Source: Xestospongia muta
Taxonomy: Eukaryota; Porifera; Demospongiae; Haplosclerida; Petrosiidae
Direction: 5' to 3'
Assembly: GCA_963693285.1 (NCBI GenBank)
Contig: OY848923.1
Span: 57,331-121,330 of the forward strand
DNA length: 64,000 bases
The position numbers and the translations under genes were made by a program. Each line of letters begins with the position of its first letter. Position 1 is the first letter of the stretch. The notes below the pieces were generated by a model. That model saw only the letters and a program-made list of their open reading frames with translations, had not been told where the DNA came from and made no database searches. Shown here in pieces: positions 30,257 to 58,524 of the stretch.

Positions 30257-33200
30257 ATGGATCCAAGGGAGAAGATTTCACTCATTGAAGAGAGCCCAAG
30301 TGATTATGGAGCTACTGGAGTATTTAGTGGAGCTCAATCTGCTAGTGTTTCTTTTCATGGAATTAGTTATCTCATACAAGAAGGTGTCTTCAAGAAAACC
30401 ACAAAGACAATTTTAAACAATGCCTCGTATGTTAAAAGTTTGTAAAGGACATGTTTTGTTATGATTAATTCATTTACAGTGGAATCATGTTACCAGGTCT
30501 TAATGCTATTATGGGGCCTACTGGTAGTGGAAAAACAACGTTAGTATTTATAATAATATTAATATTATTATATTTTATTTAATAGCTTACTTGATATTCT
30601 TGCTGATCGTAAAAATCCTAAAGGACTTCGTGGTGTTGTACTAATTAATGGAGAGCAACAACCTAAAAACTTTAAATGTATGAGTGGATACGTTGTCCAG
30701 GTAACTCACATGACTGTCACATGACTTATCATGTAATATTCAGGATGATGTTGTCATGGGAACATTGACAGTGAGGGAGAACTTCTATTTTTCAGCAGCA
30801 CTCCGACTTCCACTAAGTATTTCATGGAATGATAAGAAAAGACGAGTGGAAAAAACGATTGCTGATTTAGGCTTAACCGACTGTGCTGATACTAAAGTCA
30901 GTGTTAACTATAGAAATATTTTATTGTAATTGTATACAGATTGGCACTGAGTTCTTTAGAGGTATCAGTGGAGGTGAACGGAAGAGAACTAATATTGGTA
31001 TGGAGTTAATTATTGAGCCACAAGTCTTATTTCTTGATGAACCAACTACTGGTCTTGATGCATTCACTGCTGTTGCTGTAGTCCAGTTACTGAGAAAGTA
31101 AGAGTATGACCCTATAATTAATAGTGTCATTATTAATATAATAGTTTAGCTCATAGTGGTAATCGTATTATTATTATGTCAATACATCAACCTCGATACT
31201 CCATATATAAACAATGTGATTCACTAACTTTACTTTCACATGGAGAACTAGTCTACCAGGGAGAGACTACAAAAGCATTGGATTATTTCTCTGGCCTTGG
31301 TATGTCATGTGTATGTCACATGATGATCATGTGATCTTTTGTAGGCTACGTTTGTGAGGAACATGATAATCCAGCTGACTTCCTTCTGGATGTTATTAAT
31401 AAATGTGAAGGACAGAGTTCAGCTACAGCTGGTGAGTAAATCCCTGAAATTATATTCATTATTAATATGACATTTGGTATTGAGGATGTTACTATAATAG
31501 AATTTGTAGATCTTCTAGCTATTGAACAAAATGATGCAACAAATACTACAGTTGATCTAGCTAATGCCTACATTAATTCTAATGAATACAATACTACACA
31601 AACAAAATGTAAAGAGTTGCTTGACACATTGGAATCAAAGGAAAAAGGAGATAGAAAACACCAGAGATTTTCTCATGCTAAATATGCTACTAATTTCTTA
31701 TGGCAGGTACATAATATTATAATATATTAAATATGCCCCTTTATTTAGCTCTTAATTGTTATACATATAATATAATATGCCCCTTTATTTAGCTCTTAAT
31801 TGTCATACATATAATATAATATGCCCCTTTATTTAGCTCTTAATTGTTATACATATAATATAATATGCCCCTTTATTTAGTTAATTGTTATAGATATAAT
31901 ATAATATGCCCCTTTATTTAGCTCTTAATTGTCATACATATAATATAATATGCCCCTTTATTTAGCTCTTAATTGTCATACATATAATACGCCCCTTTAT
32001 TTAGTTAATTGTTATAGATATATTAAATATGCCCCTTTATTTAGCTCTTAAATGTTATACATATAATATAATATGCCCCTCTATTTAGCTCTTAATTGCC
32101 ATACATATAACATAATATAATATGTCTGTTATTTAGCTCTTAATCGTTATACATATACTACAATATTAAATATGCCCCTTTATTTAGTTAATTGTTATAG
32201 ATATAATATTAACTACGCTCCTTTATTTAGCTCTTAATTGTTATGATAAGATCAACAATCAATTTAGCTCGTGATCCAATGACATCTATTATACAGGTAT
32301 GTATTAATTATATTAAATTATATTATATTAGATAATTAATATTACATTCTAGTTTGTGATTGTTATCATTTTTGGTGCTGTCGTCGGAGGACTTTACTTT
32401 CAAATTGATAATGGTGATAATGGCTATCAAAACAGGTTTGTTCCTTTAATATCAATTTTTATTTCTTAAATCTTTTTGTGTAGAATTGGAGCTATTTTCT
32501 TTATTGTAATGAACCAAATATTTGGTAACTTATCAGCTATTGACCTCTTTATACGCGAGAAATGCATTTTTATGTAAGCACATTTTCATTTTTTTAACTA
32601 ATACTATCTTTTTTTAGTCATGAGAATGCTAGTGGATTCTATCGAGTCTCTGCTTATTTTTTAGCTAAAGTCATCTGTGACATTATTCCTATGAGGCTCC
32701 TCCCACTTTGTTTTTTCTCTGTTATTGTTTATTTTATGATGGGTACTCTAATAATTGATTTAAAAAATATTTATCTACATTTTTAGGTTTCCAAGTTGAA
32801 GTAGTCAAGTTCTTTATTTTTTTTCTGACACTATTTTTAACAGCAGTAGCCGCAACAACATCAGCTTTTTGGATCAGTGCTGGAGTGAAGGTAGCTGGTC
32901 TTGCGAATTTGCTTGTTGCATTAATTTATGTTGTACAAATGGTATGATAGTTTTATAATGTGTTATAAGTTATCATTCTAATAGCTTTTTGGAGGATTTT
33001 TGCTAACTCTTGATTCTTTACCAGTGTGGATACGATGGTTACAATATGGATCTCTATTCCGATATTCTGTTGAAGCATTGGCAGTTAATGAAGTAGAAGG
33101 GCTTATATTTAACCAAACTGTGTAAGAACACAATATATTATTTTATAATATTATTATTTATATATTGTTATTAGAAATGATACTGAATTACTAGTACCTG

Positions 33201-33334
33201 GAGATGTTTATCTTCATCGTCAGGGTTTTAAAACCAGCTGGCTCTGGTATGATGAGATTGGACTAGTTGTTATGTGTCTGGTCTTTCTGACACTGACTTA
33301 CTTGACTCTGCGAATTATCAAGAAAGAGAAATAA
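30257..33334 (+). CDS. ABCG2-like half ABC transporter
   Basis: ABCG-type layout: nucleotide-binding domain first, then six membrane helices. It starts [18 protein letters not shown]. Walker A is GPTGSGKTT (about 30517-30540), the Q-loop exon [18 protein letters not shown], signature [15 protein letters not shown], Walker [14 protein letters not shown] and the H-loop [11 protein letters not shown]. Membrane part: [77 protein letters not shown]. It ends LRIIKKEK. It is closest in pattern to ABCG2 and should act as a dimer in xenobiotic or lipid-like efflux. One intron (31707-32229) holds a minisatellite that repeats the acceptor region. Confidence 0.92.
31730..32229 (+). repeat. Minisatellite carrying tandem 3' splice-site copies
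   Basis: About eleven imperfect units of 38-50 bp, each holding CCCCTTTATTTAG followed usually by CTCTTAATTGTTAT and an AT-rich tail. The twelfth and last occurrence is the real acceptor and exon start (TTTATTTAG / CTCTTAATTGTTATG) at about 32229-32230. Confidence 0.92.
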
Positions 33335-33507
33335 CTTGTTATTACCAATAATTATCACGGTTATTATAATAATTATTGTCTAATTTACGGATGTGAACGG
33401 AAACATTCTGAAATTTGTACAGAAACATAATTGGGAAAAATAAATAAGAAACGCTTGCTCCGTATACTATAGACTATTAAATAATAAATTGTTTTCCATG
33501 AGAGATT

Positions 33508-34612
33508 ATGTCTTCTAAACATAATGATCGGGGCAAAGATAGCAATAATTATTCTAACTTATGCAGCCATTTTGAAGCAAATAAAAGAAGCAAGGAATAT
33601 GTGGCTCATCAAGCAAAGGTAAGAACAAGTTTCACTACCACGTGGTCGATCACGTGATATTTATAAGGTTCATTCTGTTGGTTGGAGCTGTGATGGTAGT
33701 CGATTAGCAAGTGGTTCGTTTGATAAGACAGTTACAATATGGACTCTAGAGTCCGATAGACTGGGACGAGAAGGAAACTATAAAGTAAGAAATAATTTCT
33801 TTGTATAATTTGAGAATTTATGGTATTGTCTATAGGTCCATACAGGTAGTGTTGATCAGTTGAGATGGCATCCTAGCAAACCAGAAGTATTGGTAACTGC
33901 ATCTGGTGACAAGACGATAAGAGTCTGGGATACCAGAGGTAACAAATGGATATATAATATAATGGTATGGATACATAATAGGGCTAAAATGGATGTATAG
34001 TAATTAAAATGGATGTATGTATTTTTATATTAGCTGGTAAACCCACTGGTACTGTTAGTACTAAAGGAGAAAATATAAATATATGTTGGTCTCCTGATGG
34101 CCAGACTATAGCTGTAGGCAATAAGGTATGTTACTATTAATAGATTTTAAAGGTATGTTACTATTAATAGGCTATTAACATTATGTTACTATTAATAGAC
34201 TATTAATGGTGTTATTAATAGATTATTATTATAAACTGTTTAATTCTATAAGTTTGTTTTTTAGGAGGATTTGTTGACATTTATTGATACTCGAACATTG
34301 AAAGTAAAACATGAAGAATTATTTAAATATGAGGTAATAGTGACATCATTGATTGTAATGATAAATAGTTAACTTTAGGTAAACGAAATCTCTTGGAACA
34401 AATCTGGTGACCAGTTCTATTTAACTAATGGCAACGGTTGTGTTGTCATATTTAGGTATATACTGCAATACCATATATATAATGTATATTATGTTGTATA
34501 GTTGGCCTGACTTGAAACATCTTCACACAGTCAATGCTCACCCTGCAAATTGTATATGTATTGAGTTTGACAGATCTGGAAAGTAAGATATATTGTAATA
34601 CATAGACATTTT

Positions 34613-34696
<84 letters not shown>

Positions 34697-35307: not shown

Positions 35308-37335
35308 ATGGCTGTAAGATCGTGGCTCTGTTTTGCAGTACTTCACTTCTTGTTAGTAGCTGTGCTCCCAGTGAATGTCCAGGCTATAGATATTGGTAAT
35401 GTTATAAGCTAGTGATTTGCTATTAAACTGTTAAGCCTTTTCTAATAATTAGATATATAGAGATATATATACCAGTACATTATGTGTATCTGAGTAATAT
35501 AGTATTTGTTTAATAATAATTTATTATTATTATATTTCTGTAAGTATAATAAAAGTTGTGTAGGTGGTTAAAACTAACGTTTGTAATCCAACTTTGTACT
35601 TGTTTTATTTAATTTAAAACAACCATATTAAGTTTACTTTTTTAATAGTTATTAATGATACATACACCATATTATTTAATGTATTCCCTTGAGGTAATTT
35701 ACTCAGTTCTACATCTTCATAACAAACATTAGATACAGTCCTGAGAATTACTATCAATGATGTAAACGATACATCAAATTTCTGCAACTTAGTTATGGTT
35801 AGAATATAACTGTTTTTACATAAGCGATTGTTGACGGTTTCATTATACACTTTAGAATAACTCAACACCTACTATTGTCCAAGATATACTGATAAAGTTA
35901 TGTTCTACTTGCGATAGTTATGATGTATCACTTAACAATACAAATTGTACGACAAGTATCAATGATGTAATTGTTGTATTCTCGATAACATTACATCACG
36001 TTGACTCTGTGATGACTCTATGTCCTTTACTGGAAGACAACTCTCCTTATAATATAACTCTATTTGAATTTAATATTACTGGGGTGACTGTTCAATTTGA
36101 TACTGCTTCAATGTGTAGTACACCATCTCCTACATTATCTTACTCTATTAATCGTAACCTTATAATAATAGCATGTGCATCGTTTGGTGGAGCATGTTTT
36201 GTAATGAGTACTTGCTCCTTTATTTTATTAATGATGAGATTCAAGATTAAGTCTTTACGTGAAAATGAAACCGCTAATAAGAAAAAATGGTATAGTTGTT
36301 TATTATTGTGTGAATATTTACTTTATTTTTATTAGGAAAGATGATGATATCGTTTTGAAAGAATATCAAACTGATACAACACAGATACATGACAATCAAT
36401 ACCAAGAGTCACCTCTTCCACCTCTTCCTGATGGAACTCAAGTTCCTCCTCCTCCCCCTCTTCCTGGTGGATCTCAAATTCCTCCTCCTCCTCCCCCTCT
36501 TCCTGGTGGAAGTCAAGTTCCTCCTCCTCCTCCTCCTATCCCTGGAGGAATTCACAATCGTCGTCTCCCCCCTCTCCCTGGTGGAAGTCAAGTTCCTCTT
36601 CCTCCCCCTCTTCCTGGTGGATCTCAAATTCCTCCTCCCCCTCTTCCTGGTGGAAGTCAAGTTCCTCCTCCTCCTCCTATCCCTGGAGGAATTCACAATC
36701 CTCGTCTCCCCCCTCTCCCCGGTGGAAGTCAAGTTCCTCTTCCTCCCCCTCTTCCTGGTGGATCTCTTCGTCCCCCTCTTCCTGGTGTAACTCAAATTCC
36801 TTCTTCTCTCCACGGAAGAACTCTACCTCCTCGTCCTCCCCCACTCCCTATTTCCAATAGTATATTATCAAAATCAAGTACTCTTCCTAAATCAAGATTT
36901 ATGACAGAGTCAGTAGAGCCAACTACAAAGAAAGTCCATTTTGCTTCTGATCTTCACATAGATAGTCCATCTACCCCTCCATTTATTGAAGATTATTATG
37001 ATAATAATTCATCTCATACTCCACCTCCTCACCTCCTTATACCACAATTAGCAATTGACCCAAAAGATATTGAAGACATTTATGACATAAGATTCCCAGA
37101 TTTTGACTATGATGAAGATACACGAGATTATGTCAATATTAATCCTAAGAGTGAATCACAAGATTATGTAAACATGAACCCTAGTGCTAACTCTCTTCGT
37201 GAAAAACTCAATGAAGTTGGTAACGGTAGCGATGATGATGATGATGGCCATAATGAGTATGTTAATATGAGCAAAGGTGCCTTTCATCCTCACGTTGAAA
37301 TACAGTTAGCTGATCGCGATGATTTATATGTTTAA
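35308..37335 (+). CDS. Single-pass membrane protein with proline-rich repeats and YVN(M/I) tail motifs
   Basis: Exon 1 encodes a signal peptide, [20 protein letters not shown]. An ectodomain of about 100 residues (from about 35863) has several Cys and NxT/NxS sites. A membrane helix follows, [20 protein letters not shown], then basic [16 protein letters not shown]. The next exon gives the cytosolic tail: about nine repeats of PPPLPGGSQ(V/I)P type (36421-36790), then acidic sequence with DYVNINP, DYVNMNP and EYVNMSK near the C terminus, ending DDLYV. YVNM fits both PI3K (YxxM) and GRB2 (YxN) SH2 consensus; the proline repeats fit SH3, WW or EVH1 ligands. No known family recognised. The junction from exon 1 to the ectodomain exon is not resolved; a further small exon may exist. 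Confidence 0.7.
36412..36790 (+). repeat. Coding repeat array, PPPLPGG units
   Basis: CCTCCTCCCCCTCTTCCTGG-type units of variable length repeat in frame. A larger unit of about 147 bp including GGAATTCACAATC is itself duplicated (about 36541 and 36688). Confidence 0.9.
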
Positions 37336-41307: not shown

Positions 41308-41403
<96 letters not shown>

Positions 41404-42349: not shown

Positions 42350-45300
42350 ATGCTCCAACCCACGTGGTCGCTTGCAGCAATGCATTGGTCTGTTTTTCTC
42401 TTATCCAAGACTCGTTGGTACAGCACCCTTCAGAGAAGATCACTGCTTCTCTCTCAGTATCGTAATATTAAGGTGCAATATCCTAATCACATCTTGTTAT
42501 TTCAAGTGGGAGATTTCTACGAGATATTAGACAATGACGCTGGTAATTAAGTGCATTAATTATAGGGAGTTGAGTACATTTTTGTAGAAGTCGTTGCTAG
42601 CAAGACCACCCTTCGTACATCGTTTAGAAATAACACATTATTAGCTGGTTTTCCAGTCAAATCATTAATAGAATGGCAGCGTACTTTAATTGAGGCTGGT
42701 TTTCAGTTAGCTATTTGTAACCAAACATTAGAAAGGTTACCATATTTGATGCCTACAGTATGTGTATTAAATACTGGTTCATTATAGAACTGAGAACAGT
42801 GGACGACTGTTTGGACGAGAGGTAGTTCAGTTAGTAACACCTGGTACATTGTTGGAACCTCAAGGACAATATGCTAACTATTTACTTGCAATAAAACCAG
42901 GTCCTGATGAATGTTCTGGGCTAGCTTGGCTTGAGCTATCTACCTCAGAGTTCAAAGTACATTTGTTAATAAAGTAATATTCTTAGTAATGGATATGTTT
43001 CACAGGTAACTACTGCTGTTTATGATAAAATTGATGAACATATCGAACGATTAGCTCCATCAGAGGTTTGAACCAACATTAATAGTTATTTTATTTTAAG
43101 CTTCATTAGGTTATAATATCAGAGGAGCTTGCTCAGTTAGTTAAGGCTCCACCCACTTCAAGACACGCCTCTTTATCATCATCAGTGTTATCTTTATATA
43201 AATCCTCTGTACTTCGTGATTGTCATGTGACTGCTGTCCCTAATAATTGGTTTCATGAGAAACATACTTTTAAGACATCGACGGAGCTCCAGTAAATTAT
43301 AGAATATATGATTCATTAATGACTCTAATTACAGGAACCTCCTCTCTACCTTTGAAAATAAATCTTTTTCTGTATTAGAGGTAATTTAAGAAAATTATGC
43401 CATAATGTTACCCTTGTTGCCTAGCAACAAGCAGCCATTGCTATATTAAACTACACTGGCCACACCCATCGTCAAACAATGCCCTATATTCAACCGCCCA
43501 CAAAATTCTCACATGATAGTCACATGACCATTGATACAAACACAAGACGCTCTTTAGAAATAACAATGTGAGTTTATATTTTAGATGACATCATAATGAT
43601 ATCATTAATTAGACCTCAATATAATAATACAAAAACATTGACTCTACTAGGATGTATTGATAGCACTGTTACATCAGGAGGAGCTCGATTAATTAAGAAC
43701 AGATTAACGTAATAATACCAGGGACATCCTCACTGTGTAATTATACTTTAATATTAGGGCTCCCTTGACTAAAGTAGAAGACATCAAAAGGTATATTAAT
43801 AATAAGTAATAAATTTAGGGGCTCTACTGTTATTAGACGACTTGATGTTGTTGAGTTTTTTTACACAAGACCTTGGGACACAGAACAGTTGCGTAATATG
43901 TTAAGATCTTGTTCAGATCTTGAGCGATTACTTCAAAAGGTATAAACCACACTTCCTAATAAATAAACCACACTTCCTCATAAATAAAATACACTTTCTA
44001 ATAAATAAGACACATTTCCTAATAAATAAACCACACTTCCTAATAAATAAAACATTTTCTAATAAATAATCCACACTTCCTAATAAACCACATTTCCTAC
44101 TAAATAAATAATCCACACTTCCTAATAAATAAACCACATTTCCTAATAAATAAACGACACTTCCTAATAAATAAAACATTTTCTAATAAATAAAACACAT
44201 TTCCTAATAAATAATCCACACTTCCTAATAAATAAACCACATTTCCTAATAAATAAATAATCCACACTTCCTAATAAATAAAACATTTTCTAATAAATAA
44301 AACACATTTCCTAATAAATAATCCACACTTCCTAATAAACCACATTTCCTACTAAATAAATAATCCACACTTCCTAATAAATAAACCACATTTCCTAATA
44401 AATAAACGACACTTCCTAATAAATAAAACATTTTCTAATAAATAAAACACATTTCCTAATAAATAATCCACACTTCCTAATAAATAAACCACATTTCCTA
44501 ATAAATAAATAATCCACACTTCCTAATAAATAAAACACATTTCCTAATAAATAATCCACACTTCCTAATAAATAAAACATTTTCTAATAAATAATCCACA
44601 CTTCCTAATAAATAAACCACATTTCCTACTAAATAAATAATCCACACTTCCTAATAAATAAAACACATTTCCTAATAAATAAGCAACACTTCTTTATTAG
44701 GTTGCAATGGGGAATGCCACATTGACAGACTTAATTTCTATTAATACAACACTAACAATAACAAATAATATATTTGATTTTTTAAAAGAGGCCCAATCAT
44801 CATATGAGACACTGAAACTGGAACTTGGCATAGGTATGTAGTCATGAGTCATTATTATAAGTTATTGGCCATATAAGGTATACAGCAATATATTGAGTTG
44901 GCTCAAGAACTTACATCAGCAATTTGTAAAGGAGATTATGGAAATTACATTCAAGATGGTACTGTTACTATATTTACTTGTTACTATTTATAGTAACGTG
45001 ATTCTAGGCTATTCTGTTGAAGTAGATGCATTACGAGGAAAAATGAGAAAAAATGAAAAAAGGGTTAAAAATTTGGCAGACAAAATTATGTATAAAAATA
45101 TATTTATAAAATCATTCGATATTATCCATTATGTTAGGACTGACTATCAGTTAACTAAAGTCACTGTTTCATCACATAAAGTGTATTTTAGAGTATTTGA
45201 AACAACTAGAACACAAGCAAAAATCATTGATGCCAACCCCTCCAATTTAAAAAGGTTAATATAATCATGATGATGATGTAATAATGATGTCATTGATATA

Positions 45301-57158: not shown

Positions 57159-58449
57159 TTAGGGTAAACTTTGTGATGTTTCCGCTGCATATAATGTTCC
57201 ATGAAAACCTCTACATATGAGAGAGAACTCTTTAACTTTCTCTTTGATGACTTCTCTTTGTCCTCTCTCTCTTAGTAATGATTGTCTAAACAATTGTTTC
57301 TCTAATGGAGTGGCTTGACTGGTTGGAAACCCTTCTTTAGACAACAGTTCCTATAATATAAAAACATTAGACAACAGTTCCTATAATATAAAAACAAAGT
57401 TAATCAGTTGCTAATAATAGAACATTTATACTATTATTAGTGACTGTTACTATATTTAGAACAACTAATTCATAACATGATGGATCACAAGTAACTGTTA
57501 TTAAATGTAGTATCTATTACTCCATTATCTATTATGTATCTATTACTCCATATATAGACTCACTTGAAGCCAGTTAGATAATTCAGTAATACACTGAAAT
57601 AAAAGTGCATGAAAAATATTAACTAGAAAATCTAATCGAGAACGATCCACGCCTCCAGCCACACCCTTCAACAGAAACTCAACAAGCTCGACTCCTCTCA
57701 TTAAAATTAATTTTCTAATAATTTCAGACGAAGGAATGAGATTAATAATTGTCACCATAAGACTCGATGCTGCAGCCATAGTTGGTTGTTCCGGTAACTG
57801 CAATGATTTTAAACCTAAACAGAGCAACAATGATAAATATAATATATGGAAATTGAACTGACTCAAATTAAAACAGTTATCTGACATTCCATCTATATTG
57901 AACAGCAACACTGGACAATAATCTAACATCTAAAATGAGACCAGTCACATGACAATCACATGATCAATAACATAAACGGACCTGTTTCAGTAGCTCTAAC
58001 ATTGCTTGTATAGTATCCGGGTCCATTGTCTCTAAGCCATGTTGACAGAGTTGAAAACATTGTGTTAGAAGTTGTTGTAAAAATGTTAACATTAATTCTT
58101 GACATCGCTCATCTCGACCAAATTGCTTCACTAACTAAAACAGGAGTTGATATCATGTGATAGTCACATGACTCACTTACTTCAGCAGCTGTATCGAGTA
58201 ATTTAGAATAGTGGGCAGCTGAGAAACACTGTAGTATTAATTGTATAGTGTTAGGTAAGAGTGCTATGTACTGAGATCCTGTGGTACGTAATGATCGTGT
58301 GAGACAAGATGAAATAATCTATAATATATAATAGAAGGAATTGGTACTAGAGAATATAATACTTACACTGACAACTTCAATATCACCCATCCATTTAGAG
58401 AGGAGAGACTGTAGAGAAGGCCAGAGACGAATAAGAACAGCAATCACCT

Positions 58450-58524
<75 letters not shown>

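Follow-up and report, generated by a model that had tools for sequence, protein, structure and literature searches.

The stretch analysed here, referred to as the window, comprises 64,000 nucleotides of the Xestospongia muta genome (C7:57331-121330; genome of 158 Mb in 28 contigs). A spliced model of the gene described below has an unbroken reading frame of 636 codons interrupted by 14 introns. When the protein was compared with solved structures, using a query that contained one wrong residue, the ABCG2 chain 6eti_A aligned to residues 26-634 with an E value of 4.8e-173, and the five top rows were all ABCG2, with the alignment covering the ABC and membrane domains. The best relative among the 120 database relatives listed was an ABCG2-like protein of Amphimedon queenslandica (62% identity). 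An earlier reading of this DNA, made from sequence alone, had called the gene ABCG2-like; the structure match, the database relatives and the family alignment all bear this out. Twelve of the 14 introns are 43-56 nt long; the two exceptions are one of 78 nt and intron 8, at 524 nt. The features of the locus are as follows.

30257..33337, + strand: ABCG2-like half-transporter gene, 15 exons, 636 codons plus stop (spliced model)
31707..32230, + strand: array-filled intron 8, 524 nt, GT...AG (spliced model)
31707..31748, + strand: unit 1, the donor and a 42-nt intron-length copy ending in decoy acceptor 1, with TTAAA at -19
31749..32187, + strand: units 2-11, 39-51 bp, ten further decoy acceptors
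32188..32230, + strand: unit 12, frame-keeping acceptor (spliced model)
32209..32213, + strand: candidate branch-point word TTAAC (last acceptor, A at -19)
32231..32296, + strand: exon 9, 66 nt, its opening 14 nt forming the exonic portion of the repeat unit

Twelve tandem units make up intron 8, with lengths of 42, 44, 44, 44, 41, 44, 39, 40, 44, 48, 51 and 43 bp. TRF placed the array at 31717-32244, with a period of 44, 12.1 copies and a score of 673, and also reported a higher period of 129 bp; the array spans the intron-exon boundary and extends 14 bp into exon 9. TATTTAG ends all 12 units, and every one of the 11 decoy units carries a splice signal, the ATTTAG acceptors ending at 31748, 31792, 31836, 31880, 31921, 31965, 32004, 32044, 32088, 32136, 32187 and 32230. 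A single donor is therefore followed by twelve acceptors, and in the spliced model the frame is kept by the twelfth, at 32230. Use of the first decoy would make an intron of 42 nt, compared with 43-78 nt for the other introns of the gene. Units 2-12 each contain the exon start (first 11-14 nt) joined to nearly an entire typical short intron; the trinucleotide CTC is present in eight of these 11 units and absent from units 5, 8 and 12. Behind the 11 decoys the exon start was exact twice, carried one mismatch five times and two mismatches once, and lacked CTC three times. The 19-mer TTTATTTAGCTCTTAATTG, allowing up to three mismatches, occurred nine times in the window, eight of these behind decoys and the ninth at the real junction; in 100 shuffles of the window the mean was 0.16 and the maximum 2. 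From these data we conclude that the array is real and not a product of chance. No such array was found elsewhere in the 158-Mb genome at the sensitivity used, and a dispersed repeat or transposon was rejected because the array has no further copy.

These counts agree with the earlier estimate of about 11 acceptor-bearing repeats ahead of the functional copy (11 decoys counted, 12.1 copies by TRF). A check on whether the repeat unit contains exon-start bases was positive for all of units 2-12, with 11-14 nt each, although the exact 14 bases, described earlier as the usual state, follow just two of the 11 decoys. Likewise, the polypyrimidine tract and acceptor previously given as the content of the repeat are present, but units 2-12 hold almost the entire short intron besides. 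The start of exon 9 itself was gap-free in all 15 rows of an ABCG2 protein alignment, with Q365 and R372 invariant. Exon 9 also holds ATTTAGCTC at 32262-32270, an acceptor look-alike about 37 nt into the exon that codes for part of ...INLARD....

Translation of the spliced model from each decoy reached a stop codon in all 11 cases, after 7-28 codons. The sequence-only reading had proposed that most decoys would give LLIVIHII and then a stop; the premature stop held throughout, whereas exactly this peptide came from four of the 11 decoys. Its designation of the last copy as the functional acceptor agrees with the finding that the twelfth copy keeps the frame. Since the gene is otherwise intact, the last acceptor must presumably be used often enough, and the open frame is indirect support for our inference that normal splicing at 32230 has been kept. 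Leaky use of the decoys would yield truncated messages, which would probably be degraded.

The 524-nt intron was searched for CTAAC, TTAAC, CTAAT, CTGAC, TTGAC and CTCAC, and the sole match was the TTAAC at 32209..32213. Among the twelve acceptors, YTNAY whose A falls within -15 to -30 preceded the last one only. Eight of the 11 decoys had neither YTNAY nor TTAAA at that distance, and the other three (31748, 32044 and 32187) had TTAAA at -19, one base off TTAAC. A PWM derived from 158 introns gave acceptor scores of 2.73-4.02, with the last acceptor at the top (4.02) and the others at 3.67 or below; all rank low with a small spread (18th-40th percentile, the last acceptor being at the 40th). 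The acceptors are thus nearly identical, as had been noticed earlier, whereas the last one is set apart by its upstream sequence. Acceptor choice may consequently be simpler than was supposed, because only the last copy has YTNAY at -15 to -30. We propose that selection would occur at the branch point rather than at the AG, through the TTAAC of the last unit. The real acceptor is the first AG beyond this word, so the eleven upstream AGs would be skipped, and nearness to the next donor, across an exon of 66 nt, would assist. We infer the use of the last acceptor together with this mechanism, branch-point choice being our best guess.

Several observations temper the branch-point reading. Nine of the 11 decoys have TTAAT at -33 to -45, and the last acceptor has it at -40; the word could act as the branch point of the decoys, and YTNAY as far out as this was present in 55 of 149 reference introns. 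YTAAY at -15 to -30 was found in 32 of 148 reference introns versus 21.2 in shuffles, and TTAAC alone in seven of 148 versus 3.5, but two control words were equally enriched in the 148 introns (36 versus 23.9 and 30 versus 20.5). Because the control words were enriched as much as YTAAY, a branch-point consensus was not established for this genome, and the one drawn from the reference introns was dropped to the status of a guess. Moreover, because the units were copied from each other, a difference in a single unit is weak evidence. Finally, only 3% of 158 reference introns are 42 nt or shorter, 68% are at most 86 nt and 97% at most 524 nt; this prevalence of short introns would favour decoy 2 if splicing operated across introns.

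The main alternative to branch-point choice is exon definition, in which the last acceptor would win solely by its closeness to the downstream donor, with no contribution from a branch-point difference. The near-equality of the acceptors themselves is what this alternative would expect, and the real exon is 66 nt compared with exons of 109-548 nt from the decoys. We nevertheless regard it as somewhat unlikely, as introns in this genome are short (median of 52 nt in 153 reference introns). In addition, the sponge A. queenslandica is described in PMC4432959 as having small introns, with intron retention as the main alternative event (45.0%), alternative acceptors at 17.3% and exon skipping at 1.8%; the excess of retention over skipping points to across-intron recognition.

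Alternatively, acceptor choice could be leaky, with splicing to many of the copies and truncation of most transcripts; the gene would survive on the fraction spliced to the last copy, and copy number would tune output. In keeping with this possibility, all 11 decoys lead to a stop, TTAAT precedes nine of them and TTAAA lies at -19 in three, the 86-nt intron made by decoy 2 is of a common length, and boundary minisatellites in human genes are reported to produce alternative transcripts (PMC2812944). We consider it unlikely in view of a gene that is unbroken over 636 codons and of the amphioxus mirage minisatellites discussed below, which reportedly leave splicing undisturbed (PMC3087553, PMC3902484). 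Masking of the decoys by RNA structure that exposes the last copy is very improbable and was set aside as unsupported: the region 31707-32300 folds worse than its shuffles (z = 2.90; all 100 shuffles were equally or more stable), and no Rfam family reached its gathering score in 31500-32500. Recursive splicing depends on a ratchet point at which AG is followed immediately by GT. This signature was absent from the 11 decoys, where AG is followed by CTC (eight) or TTA (three) and never by GT. Selection of the last acceptor through its candidate branch point remains the mechanism that we prefer.

The structure of the units also bears on how the array arose. Beginning at intron base 3, unit 1 can be aligned with the intronic portion of each of units 2-12; an equally good alignment was obtained in 0-1 of 500 shuffles for seven of these 11 units and in 4-20 of 500 for the remaining four. 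A single tandem duplication would be the simplest birth event. Its junction would have brought exon position 14 (GTTAT) next to intron position 3 (ACATA); almost all of the ~42-nt intron would have been copied along with 14 exonic nt, while the GT donor was left out. A duplication of this type copies the acceptor and breaks the donor, which would account for one donor being followed by twelve acceptors. Slippage or unequal exchange would later have raised the array to 12 units.

Two paralogues at 2.697 and 2.707 Mb of the same contig were compared with the gene; weaker family matches on C2, which lacked a tblastn hit, were left out. Both paralogues have an intron at the identical position (WQ/LL), reading GGCAG/GTACT...TAG/TTGTTGGTTGTG with 211 nt in one and TAG/TTGTTAGTTGTG with 79 nt in the other (sequences and lengths taken by eye), and a tandem array is absent from both introns. 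As both examined paralogues share the position without the array, the intron and the exon edge are older than the array. On this comparison of sequences, the array is an addition to this gene copy made after the intron and exon edge existed, and the earlier proposal that it grew from the exon boundary is strengthened. Intron gain by tandem duplication predicts relatives that lack both array and intron; both examined paralogues have the intron.

Similarity among the units is uneven. Two pairs, units 2/4 and units 3/6, are identical, and the three units without CTC (5, 8 and 12) are 86-95% alike. Units 7, 10 and 11 have diverged, with 68-86% identity to the others (68-84% for units 10 and 11 alone). 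The inner units are accordingly homogenised and the edge units 10, 11 and 12 diverged (68-91%); against this pattern, the inner unit 7 has diverged too (68-86%) and edge divergence is confined to the 3' side. Identical inner units together with diverged units 10 and 11 suggest minisatellite turnover, and the identical pairs, the likeness of the CTC-less units and the 129-bp period would fit amplification in blocks.

Collapse or expansion of the repeat during assembly must be weighed, since misassembly is frequent in tandem repeats and the amphioxus BflGb6 mirage was apparently misassembled in a draft genome, as reported in PMC3087553. For the sponge array such an artefact has little to commend it: 28 contigs for 158 Mb suggests that long reads were used, relative to which 524 bp is short, and several units differ from one another. 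The lengths of contigs C7 (8283645) and C8 (8283640) differ by five bases; this closeness in length is probably due to chance, because the array was found on C7 alone. An origin in which the repeats came first, with the exon edge or the intron itself recruited from them, has been put forward to explain amphioxus mirages (PMC3087553) and is reported to apply to boundary repeats in human genes (PMC2812944), but is extremely improbable here given that both examined paralogues have the intron and coding start in the same place without the array and that the exon start is aligned in 15 of 15 ABCG2 alignment rows.

We also searched for other repeated splice boundaries. A home-made gene finder recovered 12 of the 14 ABCG2 introns; as fused genes and opposite-strand shadow genes remained in its output, the reference was limited to 153 introns with good flanking coding scores. 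A first screen of these introns, in which ABCG2 intron 8 was not among the rows, used 8+8 bases and up to three mismatches. Nearby copies were found for two acceptors and three donors, compared with two and two for swapped-junction controls, and only one row, with zero mismatches in an importin-13-like gene, stood out. A possible donor-side case in a THOC3-like gene was not picked up by the larger donor screen described below. The two introns are as follows.

57351..57563, - strand: importin-13-like gene intron, 213 nt, with a duplicated acceptor region (duplication 57337-57419)
34126..34264, + strand: THOC3-like intron (PF25174), possible donor-side case

The importin-13-like duplication is a perfect 30 bp, composed of 16 nt of the intron end and 14 nt of the exon start. 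Importin-13 chain 2x19_B matches the gene (E 7.1e-24) with an alignment that crosses the junction, and the upstream copy translates as ELLSNVFIL followed by a stop. Branch-point-like words are present at both sites, TTAAC at -20 of the decoy and CTAAT at -17 of the real acceptor. Judged by its sequence, this duplication is a second, young case of the same kind in the window. In the THOC3-like intron, the donor AAG/GTATGTTACTATTAATAG (AAGGTATGTTACTATTAATAG) has a second copy within the intron, 27 bp downstream (34123-34210), with an equal PWM score, and reading through from the first copy reaches a stop. This case is weaker because just 3-4 exonic bases are repeated.

A second screen covered 1018 predicted introns, from rough gene models, in the window and a 200-kb sample, with 10+8 bases. 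Nearby copies were found for 29 of 1009 acceptors (swapped controls 1, 0 and 0), and two of the 29 were kept after inspection, those of the ABCG2-like and importin-13-like genes, both within the window. The others were antisense predictions with 3-nt exons in a satellite at 43.9-44.7 kb (16), matches within a 60-bp array of L032 (eight), 49-bp repeats internal to an intron of L015 (two) and one match in L016 that was dropped. The 200-kb sample, which lies outside the window and supplied 78 reference introns, retained no acceptor case. For donors the screen gave 31 of 1010 (controls 2, 0 and 0), most of them in the same satellites; sites at 39.9 kb, 44 kb, L015, L016 and L032 were inspected, and none of the 31 was accepted.

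Other repeats were seen in passing. The L032 array (1620-2290) has ~11 copies of its 60-bp unit, mostly with AGGT and a donor-like GTAAGTACTG, and no surrounding gene was recognised. The 49-bp repeat of L015 (6430-6545) has about two copies and lies in an apparent intron of a conserved gene. An AT-rich satellite of ~17-25-bp units at 43944-44689 seemingly fills a whole intron from donor to acceptor on the + strand, in what is presumably a MutS-like gene; the preceding exon is predicted to end with LLQK and the next to start with VAMGN, and it is the antisense reading that misleads the gene finder. The window also contains a ~36-bp minisatellite at 36412-36808, in a long plus-strand open frame with proline-rich repeats, and TC or GA dinucleotide runs of 73-90 bp at 34616-34693, 41311-41400 and 58450-58522.

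Overall, we think it probable that intron 8 holds a minisatellite born inside the gene, that its outermost 3' acceptor is the productive one and that this acceptor is chosen by way of the branch point. The array itself is probably neutral in function. A broader proposal, that minisatellites at splice boundaries are recurrent and ongoing in compact sponge genomes and that copy number acts as a dial on unproductive ABCG2 splicing, is a long shot; if it were true, individuals would differ in transporter output through the copy number of the array. Twelve near-identical acceptors behind one donor constitute a natural experiment on acceptor choice, in which use of the acceptor nearest to the donor, of the first AG beyond the branch point and of the acceptor nearest to the next donor can be separated. 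A literature search on splice models found nothing. Choice among near-identical acceptors is familiar from NAGNAG and other tandem acceptors; the sponge array differs from NAGNAG in its spacing of 39-51 nt, its twelve sites and the stop that follows from all but one of them.

Among known systems, human genes in segmental duplications carry minisatellites at exon-intron boundaries, as the sponge gene does, with units averaging 30 bp present four times and differing in copy number; PMC2812944 describes new introns and alternative splicing as the outcome. By analogy, the latter may count against clean acceptor choice in the sponge. The human cases are described as exonic repeats giving rise to new introns in recent paralogues, whereas in the sponge an old intron appears to have been extended, starting at its 3' boundary. 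Intron gain by tandem genomic duplication, represented by the Rogers model (cited in PMC3087553) and a potato RdRp case (PMC4974935), also involves duplication that touches splice signals, but the sponge intron is old and common to two paralogues. In C. elegans, one minisatellite is reported to be enriched near alternative exons (PMC4039745).

The closest counterparts are the mirage minisatellites of the amphioxus Adh3, globin BflGb6 and BflGb9, and troponin C genes, with similar repeats in PGBD5 (PMC3087553, PMC3902484); among the matches listed, the term in this sense was confined to two amphioxus papers and no sponge mirage appeared. As those papers describe them, mirages are tandem repeats across an intron-exon boundary with splice signals in the units, the authentic boundary is an outer copy, and the inner units are homogenised and the edge units diverged, all as seen in the sponge. 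Amphioxus genes with mirages are also reported to splice normally despite the repeated signals (PMC3087553, PMC3902484). The host differs, being a sponge rather than a cephalochordate, and so does the unit size, 39-51 bp compared with 150-160 bp for BflGb6, 157 bp for BflGb9 and 10-72 bp for Adh3 (PMC3087553). The sponge array has eleven decoys, compared with 6 and 3 units reported for the two haplotypes of BflGb6, and its unit, unlike those of the amphioxus mirages, holds nearly a whole short intron. The sponge case, together with the two-copy importin-13-like case, suggests broad occurrence of the process among animals. In its sequence features the sponge array fits the mirages known from amphioxus, and would be a new example rather than a new phenomenon.
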